Shown here: positions 6,651 to 42,740 of the stretch, in pieces
Layout: each line of letters opens with the position of its first letter
Position numbering within the stretch: position 1 is the first letter of the stretch
Origin: Candidatus Nitrosopumilus sp.
Lineage (GTDB): Archaea; Thermoproteota; Nitrososphaeria; Nitrososphaerales; Nitrosopumilaceae
DNA: 64,000 nucleotides
Direction: 5' to 3'
NCBI RefSeq assembly: GCF_028278985.1
Contig: NZ_JANQTA010000031.1
Span: 1-64,000, forward strand
Made by a program: the position numbers and the translations under genes
The notes under the pieces: model-generated
What the model saw: the letters and a program-made list of their open reading frames with translations, nothing else
Databases searched by the model: none
Told to the model about the DNA's origin: nothing

Positions 6651-7406
6651 TTATTCACTTGATACTTCGTCTTTCTTTTTGTTGAATTTGTTATATCCTT
6701 CTTGATTGTAACCTTCTTTGTCATAACCTAGGTGATCATATCCTTGTTTATCATATCCGTTACTATCAAATCCATTTTCATCATATCCATCTAAATCATA
6801 TCCGTTACTATCAAATCCATTTTCATTGTATCCCTTACTATCAAATCCATTTTCATCGAATCCTTCTGTGTTGAATCCATTTTTGTCATATCCTTGTTTA
6901 TCATACCCGTTACTATCATACCCATTTTTATCAAATCCATTTTTGTTAAACCCATCTTTATTGTACCCATTTTTATCAAATCCATTTTTGTTAAAACCAT
7001 CTTTATTGTACCCTTTTTTGTTAAATCCCTCTTTATCAAAAGGTGATTTTGTTTCGATGTGAATTCCGTCTATCGAAAAACCGCGATTGTCATAACCTTC
7101 TTCGTCATATCCTTTTTTGTCATACCCATTTTTGTTGAATCCCTCTCTATTGTAACCTCTGGAATCAAATCCATCCTCATCATATCCCTCTTTGAATCCA
7201 TTTTTGTCATATCCTTTTTTATCGAATCCGTGTTTGTTAAACCCCTTTTTGTTAAACCCTTTTTTGTCATACCCATTTTTGTTAAAACCATCTGTATCAA
7301 ATCCATCTTTATTGTACCCTTTTTTGTCAAATCCATCTTTGTCATAGCCATCTAGATCATATCCGTATTTGTCAAACGTTCGACTAAATCTATCAAATAA
7401 TCCCAT
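6651..7406 (-). CDS. pentapeptide-repeat (G-[YF]-[DN]-x-x) low-complexity protein
   Basis: After a short N-terminus (MGLFDRFSRTFDK), nearly the whole 251-residue protein is about 43 copies of a five-residue unit, Gly-Tyr/Phe-Asp/Asn-x-x, rich in Asp, Asn and Lys. The array is broken once by a four-residue unit and once by a 13-residue non-repeat segment (GIHIETKSPFDKE). The DNA repeats every 15 bases. This differs from the A(D/N)LxX pentapeptide-repeat family. Regular aromatic and acidic positions could build a beta-type fibre or bind divalent cations, but I know no confirmed function. No signal peptide is visible. Confidence 0.85.
   Translation of the reverse strand: MGLFDRFSRTFDKYGYDLDGYDKDGFDKKGYNKDGFDTDGFNKNGYDKKGFNKKGFNKHGFDKKGYDKNGFKEGYDEDGFDSRGYNREGFNKNGYDKKGYDEEGYDNRGFSIDGIHIETKSPFDKEGFNKKGYNKDGFNKNGFDKNGYNKDGFNKNGFDKNGYDSNGYDKQGYDKNGFNTEGFDENGFDSKGYNENGFDSNGYDLDGYDENGFDSNGYDKQGYDHLGYDKEGYNQEGYNKFNKKKDEVSSE
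6660..7380 (-). repeat. 15-bp tandem coding repeat array
   Basis: Roughly 43 tandem 15-base units make up the repeat region of the G-[YF]-[DN]-x-x protein. Several neighbouring units are nearly identical, for example between 6880 and 7020, indicating recent duplication. Because the period is a multiple of three and the codons are similar, other frames also stay open, giving long spurious ORFs. Confidence 0.8.
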
Positions 7407-9540: not shown

Positions 9541-9565
9541 TATTTAATTTCCAAATCTCTCAAAA

Positions 9566-9576
9566 TTTTGTGCCTA
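9566..9576 (+). repeat. TTTTGTGCCTA motif, copy 1
   Basis: An 11-base motif 26 nt after the zinc-ribbon gene. It recurs exactly at 30842 and 37911 and nearly at 34844, 38949 and 39970. Its role is unknown (see findings). Confidence 0.4.
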
Positions 9577-9654
9577 AATTATAATTCTACACTCATAGAA
9601 TATCTTTTGGAGATAAGAGACATCTTAATTATCTCTAATTAGCTTGAACTAATT

Positions 9655-9720
9655 ATCGTTGGTTGCTATTATGCTATCATAATTCTGGAAGATTCTACTG
9701 GCATTTCAGCAACCAATGAT
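9655..9720 (+). ncRNA. candidate structured RNA: long hairpin followed by T8
   Basis: The arms 9655-9667 (ATCGTTGGTTGCT) and 9708-9720 (AGCAACCAATGAT) form 13 consecutive pairs with a single G-U. The 40-nt loop holds a second perfect hairpin, ATTATG-CTAT-CATAAT (9668-9683). Eight T's follow directly, like a terminator. Another hairpin (GAGATAA...TTATCTC, 9610-9635) lies upstream. The 250-base gap 9541-9791 has no coding sequence that I can see. It could be a small RNA, a 3' UTR structure or a miniature inverted-repeat element. Confidence 0.45.
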
Positions 9721-9791
9721 TTTTTTTAACAATTATTCTATGTTTGTAAAATAAAGATCCTGTTTTAATTTTTCAAATTTTTATTTGTGGT

Positions 9792-9893
9792 GTGACTTTG
9801 TTTGTAAAATTTTCCTCATGCCGTGATTGTGGGTCCTTTTTTACAAATCATTATCCTGGTTACATACAATGTCCTAAATGTAGAAAAAAGTGA
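9792..9893 (+). CDS. 33-residue C-x2-C...C-x2-C zinc-finger microprotein
   Basis: A GTG-started 33-codon frame containing SSCRDCGSFF and IQCPKCRKK: two CxxC knuckles 13 residues apart, a minimal zinc ribbon. Its stop codon overlaps the ATG of the next zinc-ribbon gene (TGATG), which suggests translational coupling and supports both being real. Confidence 0.5.
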   Translation: MTLFVKFSSCRDCGSFFTNHYPGYIQCPKCRKK

Positions 9894-10066
9894 TGCTGTT
9901 GACTTGTAGAGGAATCTGTGAGAGATACAAATCTGAAAAAAAACGATATGATCCTGGTACAAAACGATGCACAGCATGCAATATCTACATACTATATGAG
10001 GGAATCATATGTCCTTGCTGTGGAACTCAGTTACGAGCAAAGCGAAAAAGTAAATTTTCAAAATAA
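9893..10066 (+). CDS. small zinc-ribbon protein, member 3 (57 residues)
   Basis: ATG at 9893 opens a 57-residue protein with CRGIC, RYDPGTKRCTAC, ICPCCGTQLRAK and a basic tail, closely matching 8807 and 11178. A longer overlapping frame at 9918-10187 is a shadow. The start overlaps the stop of the 33-residue zinc-finger ORF. Seven bases after its stop begins a long inverted-repeat element. Confidence 0.7.
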   Translation: MLLTCRGICERYKSEKKRYDPGTKRCTACNIYILYEGIICPCCGTQLRAKRKSKFSK

Positions 10067-10072
10067 TTTTTT

Positions 10073-10173
10073 GATCATTGGAAAATTGGAAGGTGACAAA
10101 ACGCCAATAGCAATACTATACCTGGTCGGTAATGAATGGAGAACTATTGTAATTTCCAATTTTTCCAATGATC
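10073..10173 (+). repeat. inverted-repeat element A (candidate structured RNA or miniature element)
   Basis: Outer arms GATCATTGGAAAATTGGAA (10073-10091) and its complement with one extra T (10154-10173) pair over 19 bases. An inner stem pairs CAATAG (10105-10110) with CTATTG (10144-10149). Element B at 10877 shares the sequence around both inner-stem strands at the same spacing but has different outer arms that still pair. The rest of the 315-base gap 10067-10381 holds nothing else that I recognise. Confidence 0.5.
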
Positions 10174-10381
10174 TTTGGCCAAGCTGACTTGTAATGATGT
10201 CAGATCACAGCACGGCCAACTCATTCTTAGTTTTCAAATTAATTATATCTGACTGTGGTTTCTTTTTGTTGTTCTAAACTTGTGTACTTTTCTAATCTAA
10301 TACTTTGTCTTGTTTCATAATAATAAAATAAGAAAATGTACTGAGCATCATCTTTAATTAATTTTTTAATAAATAACTAGT

Positions 10382-10684
10382 ATGAGTCAATCTGATGTTA
10401 AACCATGGGTGATTGTAAGTAGCATTAAGCAAGATACCAATCCTCAGGACTTACAACGGATATCTCCACAAGTTTCTACATTAGTGGATGAGTGGCATGC
10501 AAATGGAAAAATCATGCTTTCTGGACCTTTTGACAATGCATTGTCTTCTATGGCTGTTTTTGAGGCTACAGAGGAGGAAGCTAGGGCATTTTACAAAAAA
10601 TATGAAGATATTTGCTCTGGAATTTTGACCTATGAATTGTATCAATGGGATGTAATGCCAATTCTATCAGTCTTATCCAAGTGA
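10382..10684 (+). CDS. YciI-like domain protein
   Basis: A 100-residue dimeric alpha/beta (ferredoxin-like) protein of the YciI/YCII-related family: strand WVIVSSIK, helix ending HVxEW-like VDEWHANG, then LSGPF, and AVFEATEEEARAFYKK before the last strand. YciI-type proteins are small and of mostly unknown function; some act in degradative pathways. A TTTTTTAATAAAT box at about -27 supports ATG 10382. Confidence 0.8.
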   Translation: MSQSDVKPWVIVSSIKQDTNPQDLQRISPQVSTLVDEWHANGKIMLSGPFDNALSSMAVFEATEEEARAFYKKYEDICSGILTYELYQWDVMPILSVLSK

Positions 10685-10705
10685 CTGATTATTCCTATTA
10701 TTTTT

Positions 10706-10861
10706 GTGATCACATTGAAAAGTGAATTGTGTAGAATTTGTGGCTGTGAGATTAAAGAATATTCAAAGTGCGAACAATGCAAATTAGTTGTTTCTACAAT
10801 CTGTAAATGTTGTAACTCTATTGAAGAAATCCAAACTCATATTCATTCTTCAACTGCATGA
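10706..10861 (+). CDS. 51-residue Cys-rich (three CxxC) microprotein
   Basis: A GTG-started frame with LCRICGCEI, KCEQCK and TICKCCNS: eight to nine Cys in 51 residues, arranged as three C-x2-C knuckles. The start is uncertain (GTG 10706 or TTG 10715). Its stop overlaps an ATG opening a 24-codon frame (10858-10932) that I do not call. Inverted-repeat element B begins 16 bases after the stop, as element A follows member 3. Function unknown; zinc binding is inferred. Confidence 0.5.
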   Translation: MITLKSELCRICGCEIKEYSKCEQCKLVVSTICKCCNSIEEIQTHIHSSTA

Positions 10862-10876
10862 GAAAACTTGAACAAA

Positions 10877-10975
10877 TTAGAGAATTGAAAACCATGTTGA
10901 CTCATGCCAATAGAAATACCCCTCCGTGTTAATTAGGATGAACAACTATTTTCATTTGGTTTCCAATTTCTCTAG
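10877..10975 (+). repeat. inverted-repeat element B (homologue of element A)
   Basis: The arms 10877-10893 (TTAGAGAATTGAAAACC) and 10958-10975 (GGTTTCCAATTTCTCTAG) pair with one mismatch, one bulge and one G-U. The loop contains GCCAATAGAAATAC (10906-10919), 13 of 14 identical to element A, and AACTATT (10944-10950), also shared, giving the same inner stem at nearly the same spacing. The remaining non-coding DNA to 11177 shows only a short palindrome (CATTGT-ATG-ACAATG, 11009-11023). Confidence 0.5.
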
Positions 10976-11177
10976 TCTTACAGTACATTTCTAGGGCTAA
11001 TGTCGATGCATTGTATGACAATGTAGATACTTTCTAAAAATTATTATAGATTTATCAAATTGCAAGTCTTTATTCTATAGTTGTGTTTGATGTCATTTGG
11101 TAATCTTATTCTAATTTGCTAAACTAGGATTTTGAAATTATTGATATTATTATTATCTACTTTAACAAATTTTGTTC

Positions 11178-11393: not shown

Positions 11394-11594
11394 ATGATTT
11401 CAAAAAATCTTAAAGAACAAATCATGTGTGAAATGTGCAAAATCAATCCTCTAACAGAAAAAGTCTATTGCAATTATTGTGACAAGTCTCATTATCTGTG
11501 TTCAAATTGTATAGAAGAAAATAAAGATAAATTACAAATGCGTCCTGTAACTGTTTCAACCATTTTTCAGAAAAACCTGCACAAATGGAAGTAG
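11394..11594 (+). CDS. small treble-clef/B-box-like zinc-finger protein
   Basis: A 66-residue protein with CEMC, VYCNYCDKSHYLCSNC and a helical tail. Six Cys plus a His in C-x2-C ... C-x2-C-x3-H-x3-C-x2-C order resemble a cross-brace (B-box or ZZ-like) finger rather than the CPCC family next door. It follows member 4 by seven bases. The start is ATG 11394; an in-frame ATG at 11424 is possible. Confidence 0.65.
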   Translation: MISKNLKEQIMCEMCKINPLTEKVYCNYCDKSHYLCSNCIEENKDKLQMRPVTVSTIFQKNLHKWK

Positions 11595-11670: not shown

Positions 11671-13290
11671 ATGATGACTCGAAATCTAACCGTATTCATT
11701 ACAGCAGTCTTAATGGTTGGAGTTGTAGGATTATCTGGAAATATGATTCCAGAAGCCGAAGCACTAAAAGCTAAAAATCAAGGCGGCCCTGCAACCGATA
11801 TCTGTGGACTATCGCTATGTTCTGAATATCCGGGCGGAAAAGAAGCATATCAGGCAAACTGGTTTAAGTCATACTTGAGTGCCCCAAGTGTCCAAGTAGA
11901 TTCTACTCCGATGCATTCAGATGATCATGATGATCACAGCAAAGGAAAAATTGTACCAAATGCACGTACTGCAGACTCTGAATATCCAGCACAACTAGAT
12001 GTTTTTATCCACAAATTCGAATTGGATAAAATCTCAGCTGAAGAAGCTCTAGATGGAATCAAAGATGTACATACTGCATATGTTAATGCAAGAATCTCTA
12101 ATGACATTATCAATGGTGTAGCAGATAAATTAAATCTCTACAACAGAGGAACTCTCAACGCTGAAGAAGCAATTGAATCAATTCACTTGACAGCTGAACC
12201 ACAAAACGTCAATCCTGAGTATCAGGGTGCATTAGACGAAGTGATTCACATGTTCGAGAAAGATGCAATGTCAGCTGAAGACGCTATTGATGGAATCATC
12301 GAAGTTCACAACGGCTTTGTTGGATTGTACATCACATCTGACTTGATTGAAGCAGTTGATGTAATCATCGGTCACATCGATTCTGGTAAACTATCAGGAG
12401 GCGATGCAGTTGAAGCAGTACACTTGACAGCTGAACCACAAAACGTCAATCCTGAGTATCAGGGTGCATTAGACGAAGTGATTCACATGTTCGAGAAAGA
12501 TGCAATCTCAGCTGATGAAGCAATCGATGGTATTGTAGAAGTACATGACGGCTTTGTTGGATTGTACATCACATCTGACTTGATTGAAGCAGTTGATGAG
12601 AAAATTGCATTGATGGATTCTGGTAAGCTATCAGGAGACACCTTTATTGAAGCAGTCCACTTGTCAGCTGAACCACAAAATGTGGATCCAGAGTTTATTG
12701 GAGCAATAGATGAACATCTACACAAGTATGAATTAGACAAAATGCCAGCTGAAGATGCCATAGCAGGTGTCATTGAAGTACATGAAGGCTTTACTTCACT
12801 CTACATCACATCAGATCTAATTGATGATATTGGTACCCAAATCAGTATCTACAATTCAGGAAATGATTCTGTAGACCATGTATTACATGAAATGCATGAA
12901 ATAATTGAAGAAGCTGAAATGGCTGCAATGCAATCTGGCGATGATGATGGTATTCCAGTGTTAGACTTGCCAGCAAATCATGTTGGTATGCCAGCAGGTT
13001 CTGGTGTTCCAGGATGTGAGGCAGATAATTGGTGTTACTTACCAAATGATCTACATGTTCATGTTGGTGACACAGTAACATTTGTTAACACTGATACACT
13101 ACCACACACAGTAACTTCAGTTAATCCAACAGGTGCAGAAAAACCTTCATCTGATGATGAAAATGGTTTATTTGATAGTGGTTTCATGTCTGGTGGCGAT
13201 GAATGGTCTTATACATTCGACACCGCAGGTGAGTACTACTATTACTGTCAATTGCATCCATGGATGGAAGGCTCAGTTAATGTCGAATAG
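11671..13290 (+). CDS. secreted blue copper (plastocyanin-like) protein with four tandem helical repeats
   Basis: 539 residues. Signal peptide (TVFITAVLMVGVVGLSG), a Cys-containing linker and a His/Asp-rich segment (HSDDHDDHS) come first. Four ~79-residue helical repeats follow, each with a core like DEVIHMFEKDA and VHxGFxxLYITSDLI. The C-terminal cupredoxin domain keeps a complete type-1 copper site: His479 (LPHTVTS), Cys526, His529 and Met532 in CQLHPWM. In thaumarchaea such proteins are thought to carry electrons outside the membrane in place of cytochrome c. The repeats may mediate surface or partner binding (inference). Tandem ATGATG start; leaderless TATA and an operator-like palindrome upstream. 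Confidence 0.92.
   Translation: MMTRNLTVFITAVLMVGVVGLSGNMIPEAEALKAKNQGGPATDICGLSLCSEYPGGKEAYQANWFKSYLSAPSVQVDSTPMHSDDHDDHSKGKIVPNARTADSEYPAQLDVFIHKFELDKISAEEALDGIKDVHTAYVNARISNDIINGVADKLNLYNRGTLNAEEAIESIHLTAEPQNVNPEYQGALDEVIHMFEKDAMSAEDAIDGIIEVHNGFVGLYITSDLIEAVDVIIGHIDSGKLSGGDAVEAVHLTAEPQNVNPEYQGALDEVIHMFEKDAISADEAIDGIVEVHDGFVGLYITSDLIEAVDEKIALMDSGKLSGDTFIEAVHLSAEPQNVDPEFIGAIDEHLHKYELDKMPAEDAIAGVIEVHEGFTSLYITSDLIDDIGTQISIYNSGNDSVDHVLHEMHEIIEEAEMAAMQSGDDDGIPVLDLPANHVGMPAGSGVPGCEADNWCYLPNDLHVHVGDTVTFVNTDTLPHTVTSVNPTGAEKPSSDDENGLFDSGFMSGGDEWSYTFDTAGEYYYYCQLHPWMEGSVNVE
12184..12660 (+). repeat. 237-bp near-identical tandem repeat in the blue copper gene
   Basis: The second and third protein repeats start 237 bases apart (12184 and 12421). 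They are almost base-for-base identical over the first ~100 bases and again near 12310-12350 and 12550-12590, while the first and fourth repeats are diverged. This points to recent unequal exchange or gene conversion inside the array. Confidence 0.8.
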
Positions 13291-41580: not shown

Positions 41581-42740
41581 TACTCCTCTTTTACCAGTCC
41601 TGCCTCATTTTCAATCAACTTCATCTTATCTCTTAACTCTTTACTTAAAGACGAAAAGAATTCAGGATACACTGGGAATCTGCATCCCAATTCAAATCCT
41701 GCATCTTTTGAATAATTATCTACTCTACTAATTTCCGGCCATGAAAATTCTGGATTTACAAAGTCTGGTGTTAATGGAGAAATCCCTCCCCAATCATTAA
41801 TGCCTAATTGTAAAAAGTCTTGGTATGATGCTGGTGATAAATTTGGAGGAATTTGTATATTCATTTCTGGCATTATGACTCTTGATAATGCAACTATTGT
41901 CTTAAAGTAGGTTTGATCAGCTGAAGGGCTATCTCTCATTCTAGTATCTTGCTTTGGTTGAAAGTTTTGAATAATTACTTCTTGAATATTCCCAAATTGA
42001 TTGTGTAGATTTTTGATTGCTAAAAGTGAATCAATTATCTCCTCGATATTTTCTCCAATACCAACTAGAATCCCTGTTGTCATTGGAATTCCTAATTTTC
42101 CTGAATTCTCTAATACTTCCAGTCTTGTTTTTGGTCGTTTGCTTGCAGCCAAATGATGAGGCATTCCTTTCTCAGTTAATCTATCACTGATATTCTCAAG
42201 CATAATTCCCATGGATACGTTGGTTTTCTTTAATTCTTTTAATTCCTCAAATTCTAAATTTCCTGCATTAGTATGTGGGAATAATCCCATTTCTAAAGCC
42301 ATTTCAGATGCATGGACAAGATATTCTGCAGTTGATTTGAATCCATTTTCTTTTAACCAGTCTCTTGCTTCTTGATATCTTTGTTCTGGTCTTTCCCCTG
42401 TTACAAATAATGCTTCTACACATCGATATTTTTTTGCTAACTCCAAAACATCTTTGATTTGTTGTTTTGACATAAGAGATAATTTCTCTTCTCCGGGTTC
42501 AGCTTTGTATGTGCAATAAGAACATGTGTCTTTACACATATTGATAATGTTAAAAAATGCTTTTTTAGAAAAAGTAACAGAATTTTTTTTGAATTTTTTT
42601 CTTAAATTCTGTGCAGCTGAAAATAATTCTCTAGAATTTTTTGTAGAATCATTATAGATTTCTAAAATTTCCTGACGAGATATTACTTTGTTCTCTAAAA
42701 CATTGTTTAAGCTCTCTGAGTTTAATACAAGCTTGTTCAA
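41571..42740 (-). CDS. cofG: FO synthase subunit 1 (CofG)
   Basis: 389 residues. Radical-SAM motif CKDTCSYC (C-x3-C-x2-C), then EALFVTGERPEQRY, ENISDRL and NDWGGISPLTPDFVN, as in CofG/FbiC N-terminal halves. It closes the deazaflavin ring in F420 synthesis. First gene of the cofG-cofH-tldE operon. Archaea and actinobacteria differ in whether CofG/CofH are fused; here they are separate but overlapping. Confidence 0.96.
   Translation of the reverse strand: MNKLVLNSESLNNVLENKVISRQEILEIYNDSTKNSRELFSAAQNLRKKFKKNSVTFSKKAFFNIINMCKDTCSYCTYKAEPGEEKLSLMSKQQIKDVLELAKKYRCVEALFVTGERPEQRYQEARDWLKENGFKSTAEYLVHASEMALEMGLFPHTNAGNLEFEELKELKKTNVSMGIMLENISDRLTEKGMPHHLAASKRPKTRLEVLENSGKLGIPMTTGILVGIGENIEEIIDSLLAIKNLHNQFGNIQEVIIQNFQPKQDTRMRDSPSADQTYFKTIVALSRVIMPEMNIQIPPNLSPASYQDFLQLGINDWGGISPLTPDFVNPEFSWPEISRVDNYSKDAGFELGCRFPVYPEFFSSLSKELRDKMKLIENEAGLVKEEYWR

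Follow-up and report, generated by a model that had tools for sequence, protein, structure and literature searches.

Elements A (10073-10173) and B (10877-10975) of the window, that is, the whole stretch of 64,000 nucleotides analyzed here from a Candidatus Nitrosopumilus sp. genome, probably represent a new family of archaeal antisense sRNAs that act in trans and block the translation of ferredoxin. As read from the sequence, they are two paralogous minus-strand genes for one RNA of ~165 nt, longer than the elements originally noted. Regulatory sRNAs of Thaumarchaeota are almost unexplored, and according to a 2012 review none had yet been studied in this group (PMC3432209). The family described here is conserved, has a predicted target that is definite and testable, and occurs in a major ocean nitrifier. 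The literature searched contains no report of this sRNA. In the Rfam searches, the window gave no match at gathering score except for two tRNAs elsewhere, the region 9560-11120 gave none at E<=1, and four relatives gave none at E<=0.1. The family, absent from both Rfam and the literature searched, is thus regarded as new.

Structure, Strand and Anatomy of the sRNA Genes

A and B are present at these coordinates and are homologous, as the earlier sequence-only reading had claimed, and they have GCCAATAGnAATAC and AACTATT in common. Both fold far beyond their shuffles, A with z = -4.6 on the plus and -4.9 on the minus strand, and B with z = -3.1 and -3.6, respectively. Their outer arms had been described as unlike in sequence. 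These can actually be aligned (ATTGGAAAATTGG vs ATTAGAGAATTGA and TTTCCAATTTTTCCAAT vs TTTCCAATTTCTCTAGT) and are therefore diverged homologues, so that the term was too strong. Each element does lie directly 3′ of the stop of a small Cys-rich ORF (10066 and 10861), but this position is not the conserved feature; the comparison of loci places the constant neighbor of the sRNA on the opposite side from the Cys-rich gene.

In the alignment of the relatives, the consensus fold reaches -15.4 kcal/mol on the minus strand vs -8.8 kcal/mol on the plus strand. The minus strand folds better because many variant pairs are G-U there; on the plus strand they are C-A, and a plus-strand RNA was rejected for its weaker consensus fold and these C-A pairs. 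A structured minus-strand RNA is almost certainly conserved, and the transcript itself is inferred.

The features of the RNA gene are arranged on the minus strand as follows: a TAGAAYA box, 18 nt, CATCTATAATAAT, ~27 nt, a 5′ hairpin and a long hairpin, followed by a T-run in most relatives. The first two boxes form a conserved bipartite promoter (TAGAAYA-N18-CATCTATAATAAT) ~27 nt 5′ of the 5′ hairpin. In most members, TAGAAYA and CATCTATAAT are spaced by exactly 25 nt. No conserved palindrome was seen by eye in the promoter. The 5′ hairpin, also inspected by eye, shows compensation: the window has TTGGCC/GGCCAA, the copy on contig C8 has TTGACC/GGTCAA and the genome G122 has TTAGTC/GACTAA.

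Copy A (10062..10221, minus strand) was delimited by its fold and by the match of the covariance model R1, built for the long hairpin (97.7 bits at 10063-10173, minus strand). It consists of the 5′ hairpin (~10175-10221), the long hairpin (~10066-10173) and a weak T-rich 3′ end; its 5′ end was set from the promoter spacing. Copy B (10861..11022, minus strand) was delimited by alignment and by an R1 match of 66.4 bits at 10870-10979 (minus strand). The copies of this genome are without the clean T-run of most relatives.

The promoter of A is located at 10236..10276 (TAGAACA-N18-CAGATATAATTAA) and that of B at 11037..11077 (TAGAATA-N18-AATCTATAATAAT), both on the minus strand. When the ~128,000 window positions on both strands were scored with a profile derived from 17 other family promoters, B came first and A second. 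The third-best match (12.1 bits) is found at 42645-42685 on the minus strand and may fall in coding sequence.

A pseudoknot CCGACCA/TGGTC spanning the inner stem seemed convincing in individual sequences only. In the permutation test, the pairing within sequences was no better than between sequences (p = 0.37) and the pseudoknot was rejected.

Copies, Relatives and Covariation

By BLAST, 12 clear relatives were identified in further family genomes, and R1 has matches in 25 of 250 family genomes, with G040 among them at no better than E = 0.005. With a refined model, 400 genomes of the order yielded no additional ones. The search of relatives by sequence and by covariance model, which the sequence-only reading had proposed, thus led to further copies with compensatory changes. 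Among 28 distinct RNAs, 92.5% of the cells are paired, and 11 of the 17 pairs show double-sided changes (37 double-sided cells). None of 500 shuffles was as good and slid controls reached 25-53%, which bears out the claim of a selected RNA structure.

The segment 9614..11594 recurs on contig C8 (15320-17290, minus strand) with 87% identity. It holds A, B, a third hairpin (R1el, see below), the neighbor gene and the small Cys-rich genes. Owing to this recurrence, the genome (1.69 Mb, 32 contigs) contains four sRNA copies; across genomes their number ranges from one to four. A relative assembled as a single contig (G175) also has two, so that the multiplicity is no artifact of assembly.

R1 missed the genome G088, where a hairpin 5′ of the neighbor-gene copy has a wholly different outer stem (CATTAACACA / TGTGTTAATG) that still pairs. 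Despite the replaced stem, both antisense blocks are retained (GGTTCATCC and GGAAGTTGCTATTGGCAT). In a search for the antisense pattern in 20 genomes without model match, the sRNA was found, besides Fd1 itself, in G088 only. Other candidates inspected (L207, L208 and L212) proved to be coding sequence.

The weak match in G040 (L132) has yet another outer stem (GAGACCATTAACCAA/TTGGTTAATGGTCTC) and carries GGATCTAATTGCTATTGGCAT on the minus strand; it is probably a further diverged member. In G123, a second, weak copy (L135) with AACGTCAATAGCGATACATCC on the plus strand has a diverged antisense block. In G139, a gene recognized by eye as a tyrosine-recombinase-like integrase (L017, 317-1351 of the reversed locus) is located directly upstream of the sRNA module. 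This module may be able to change sites. Viral carriage was also considered and set aside: no viral contig encoding the neighbor protein was found, and the 15-base pattern was too short to inform.

The Start of a Ferredoxin mRNA as Predicted Target

The best-conserved stretch outside the outer stem, 5′-GGAAGTATTnCTATTGGCAT-3′, complements nucleotides 1-20 of the Fd1 mRNA, the start codon among them. Fd1 is a [4Fe-4S] ferredoxin gene (start ATGCCAATAGCAATACTTCC, protein MPIAILPDIDEQRCIGCALC...; 4Fe-4S binding domains by Pfam, Fer4) located on a different contig from the sRNA. An exact search with GCCAATAGnAATAC in the genome returned, besides the four copies of the sRNA, the start codon of Fd1 and nothing else. 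Since this core recurs at the start codon, the minus-strand RNA would be antisense to these 20 nt of the mRNA. The antisense loop together with the inner stem is more conserved than the remaining loop.

In copy A, the antisense segment (10101..10122, minus strand; RNA GGTATAGTATTGCTATTGGCGT) is predicted to pair with ~20 nt at the beginning of the Fd1 mRNA. Copy B has a respective segment at 10904..10925 (minus strand, GGAGGGGTATTTCTATTGGCAT) and a second one at 10937..10946 (minus strand, GTTGTTCATC), complementary to GATGAACAAA of Fd1 codons 9-12. This second block is conserved across the family, and its TTCATC complements GATGAA at codons 9-10. In the genomes read, a TATA-like GGTTTAAATAG is situated ~34 nt 5′ of the Fd1 ATG, and the mRNA is hence apparently leaderless.

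The ~52-nt sRNA loop was paired by RNAduplex with the first 45 nt of Fd1, against a background of 1038 windows. The copies of this genome reach -30 to -35 kcal/mol, equaled by 0-1 of the 1038 windows. Other group-1 genomes showed similarly strong pairing (mostly 0-3 of the 1038 windows), and the flavodoxin-linked genomes (group 2) weaker values of -18 to -28 kcal/mol. In nearly all sRNAs, none of 300 shuffled Fd1 targets was as good. Several substitutions in the antisense block are T to C on the plus strand and keep a G-U pair with the mRNA; the base n of the stretch often fails to complement Fd1.

Genomes that lack the sRNA have an identical Fd1 start, so that no co-variation of target and sRNA is visible. 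In the isolated RNAs of this genome, the inner stem partly closes the antisense segment, whose bases have a mean unpaired probability of 0.36-0.47, and cofolding brings a modest net gain of -1.3 to -9.1 kcal/mol. On the whole, the complementarity makes it very likely that the ferredoxin start is the sRNA target. The sRNA cannot be a core ferredoxin control, since the family is patchy (~10% of genomes).

A Third Hairpin and the Second Ferredoxin

A third sRNA candidate, R1el (9652..9727, plus strand), lies 350 nt away and is unrelated to A and B. It is composed of a 13-bp stem, a T8 run and a loop with CTACTGGCAT, which exactly complements the beginning of the mRNA for the second ferredoxin, Fd2 (ATGCCAGTAG). 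The predicted pairing amounts to -33.1 kcal/mol. Fd2 is a paralogue of Fd1 with 85% identity. A promoter-like site upstream of R1el (9596..9636, plus strand; TAGAATA ... GACATCTTAATTAT) has a weak profile score, rank 8 in the window. The two known copies of R1el both belong to this genome, the second one on contig C8, and BLAST outside it gave short, chance-like matches only.

In silico, A prefers Fd1 and R1el prefers Fd2. For B, the preference is Fd2 by net cofold gain and Fd1 by duplex energy. That two unlike hairpins within one 2-kb segment should match both ferredoxin start codons is hard to explain by chance.

Neighboring Genes

The constant neighbor (10382..10684, plus strand) encodes a 100-aa protein, is divergent from A and is found in all 20 group-1 loci. 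Pfam and NCBIfam gave no confident name for the protein. Its predicted fold is beta-alpha-beta-beta-alpha-beta, like the dimeric barrels of muconolactone isomerase/YCII (AF2 pLDDT 80; weak Foldseek matches). The promoter of this gene (10324..10364, plus strand; TAAAATA-N18-CATCTTTAATTAA) has the same bipartite layout and ranks fourth in the window. Based on this common promoter type, the sRNA and its neighbor are probably co-regulated. The gene is absent in 12 of 15 family genomes without model match. A promoter-like site of the sRNA type is also found in another genus, just 5′ of a distant homologue of the neighbor gene (L191 of G001, ~1418-1458).

The sRNA adjoins the 100-aa gene in 20 loci and a small zinc-protein gene in seven, five of which have a flavodoxin gene within ~1 kb. 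In the window, a small zinc-protein gene (11394..11594, plus strand) is 33% related to the sRNA-adjacent gene of the flavodoxin-linked genomes. A gene for a ~113-aa winged-helix (TrmB-like) protein recurs near nine sRNA loci (L112, L113, L115, L117, L120, L129, L131, L134 and L214). Its product is a candidate regulator of the bipartite promoter.

Proposed Mechanism and Alternatives

Pairing of the sRNA at the 5′ end of the Fd1 mRNA, which is apparently leaderless, would cover the start codon. The ribosome would then be unable to load, and ferredoxin output would fall because the covered codon keeps the ribosome off. B and R1el probably extend the repression to Fd2. Translational repression of ferredoxin is likely, its direction being deduced from the position of the pairing. 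The same pairing could have the opposite effect, with the sRNA protecting or activating the ferredoxin mRNA, for instance by shielding its 5′ end from decay, as complementarity alone fits either outcome. This is considered unlikely: in an mRNA that is apparently leaderless, a duplex across the start codon would normally block initiation, and for sRNA162 of Methanosarcina mazei, masking of a ribosome-binding site has been reported (PMC3510493).

It is improbable that the structured RNA serves mainly as something else, such as a protein scaffold or a modification guide, with the ferredoxin match being incidental. The block CCGACCA is indeed conserved without matching Fd1, and the lack of an Rfam family would suit such a role. 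Against it stand the 19-20 nt match at the start codon, far beyond background and with a core unique in the genome, and the independent match of the unrelated hairpin nearby to the start of the second ferredoxin. Furthermore, neither box C (RTGATGA) nor a terminal ACA is present in A, B or R1el, which separates them from box C/D and H/ACA guides.

A role in cis, as leader or riboswitch of the 100-aa gene, is even less probable; this reading draws on the location of the element ~250-310 nt upstream of this gene in group-1 loci. Both the fold and the variation of the RNA are those of the minus strand, a different gene adjoins it in seven genomes, and the 100-aa gene is served by a separate TATA-type promoter ~30 nt 5′ of the ATG, for which reason the leader was rejected. 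Nor does the earlier proposal of a cis element 3′ of zinc-ribbon genes hold, as the sRNA gene is a separate one that is read from the opposite strand, has a promoter of its own and matches a ferredoxin mRNA in trans, in antisense orientation.

The decayed miniature inverted-repeat transposon (MITE) that had been offered as the alternative recalls the inverted arms, the more than one copy per genome and the integrase-like gene of G139, but it is very improbable given the few copies (1-4) with constant neighbor gene, promoter, loop sequence and compensatory changes, the better conservation of the antisense loop with the inner stem, and the origin of the copies in this genome from duplication of a whole 2-kb gene segment.

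For translational repression by the antisense sRNA, a physiological setting can be proposed with lower confidence. The sRNA may be made under iron shortage or redox change, when flavodoxin or other carriers would replace ferredoxin. Flavodoxin is an iron-free substitute for ferredoxin. An iron-sparing role is thus suggested, not demonstrated, by the flavodoxin genes near the sRNA, and an iron-linked role is possible at somewhat less than an even chance. If this applies, the sRNA would couple iron supply to electron flow, and the iron requirement of these organisms is of ecological interest (PMC6776035). More tentatively still, the whole system may form an accessory iron-sparing switch in marine ammonia-oxidizing archaea. 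The copies in this genome would be split between Fd1 (A) and Fd2 (B and R1el) and would silence the start codons, with a dedicated bipartite promoter shared with the partner protein and flavodoxin or other carriers as substitutes.

Relation to Known sRNAs

The family has the features of trans-encoded base-pairing sRNAs, as far as sequence evidence goes: a transcription unit of its own away from the target (a promoter, and a T-run in most relatives), a conserved secondary structure (11 of 17 pairs double-sided, 0 of 500 shuffles equal) and predicted complementarity at the target start codon. The predicted targets are two [4Fe-4S] ferredoxins, in other words mRNAs of iron proteins, as for iron-sparing sRNAs. 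Bacterial iron-sparing sRNAs of the RyhB type repress iron-protein mRNAs by pairing near the start and are Hfq-dependent and Fur-controlled. They resemble the present family in the pairing near the start of such mRNAs, which is a prediction here.

IsaR1 of cyanobacteria (Georg et al. 2017, cited in PMC6202907) is induced by iron starvation and is also aimed at iron-containing electron-transfer proteins. It differs in being bacterial, 68 nt long and having >15 targets, whereas the archaeal RNA of ~165 nt has one or two predicted targets and a hypothetical iron control. The M. mazei sRNA162 (PMC3510493) is an archaeal, trans-encoded RNA that uses an unpaired region to pair with an mRNA close to its translation start. 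In contrast to the present family, it belongs to another lineage, targets a transcription factor and masks the ribosome-binding site. A leaderless start codon is the predicted target here, and the family may thus exemplify sRNA action on a leaderless archaeal mRNA, where no ribosome-binding site exists to mask.

Other Genes of the Window

Two further genes of the window encode proteins rich in repeats. At 6651-7406 (minus strand), the protein consists nearly entirely of repeats like GYDKDGFDKKGYN. Directly after the sRNA segment, at 11671-13290 (plus strand), a 539-aa protein combines repeats with a C-terminal copper domain of the plastocyanin type.
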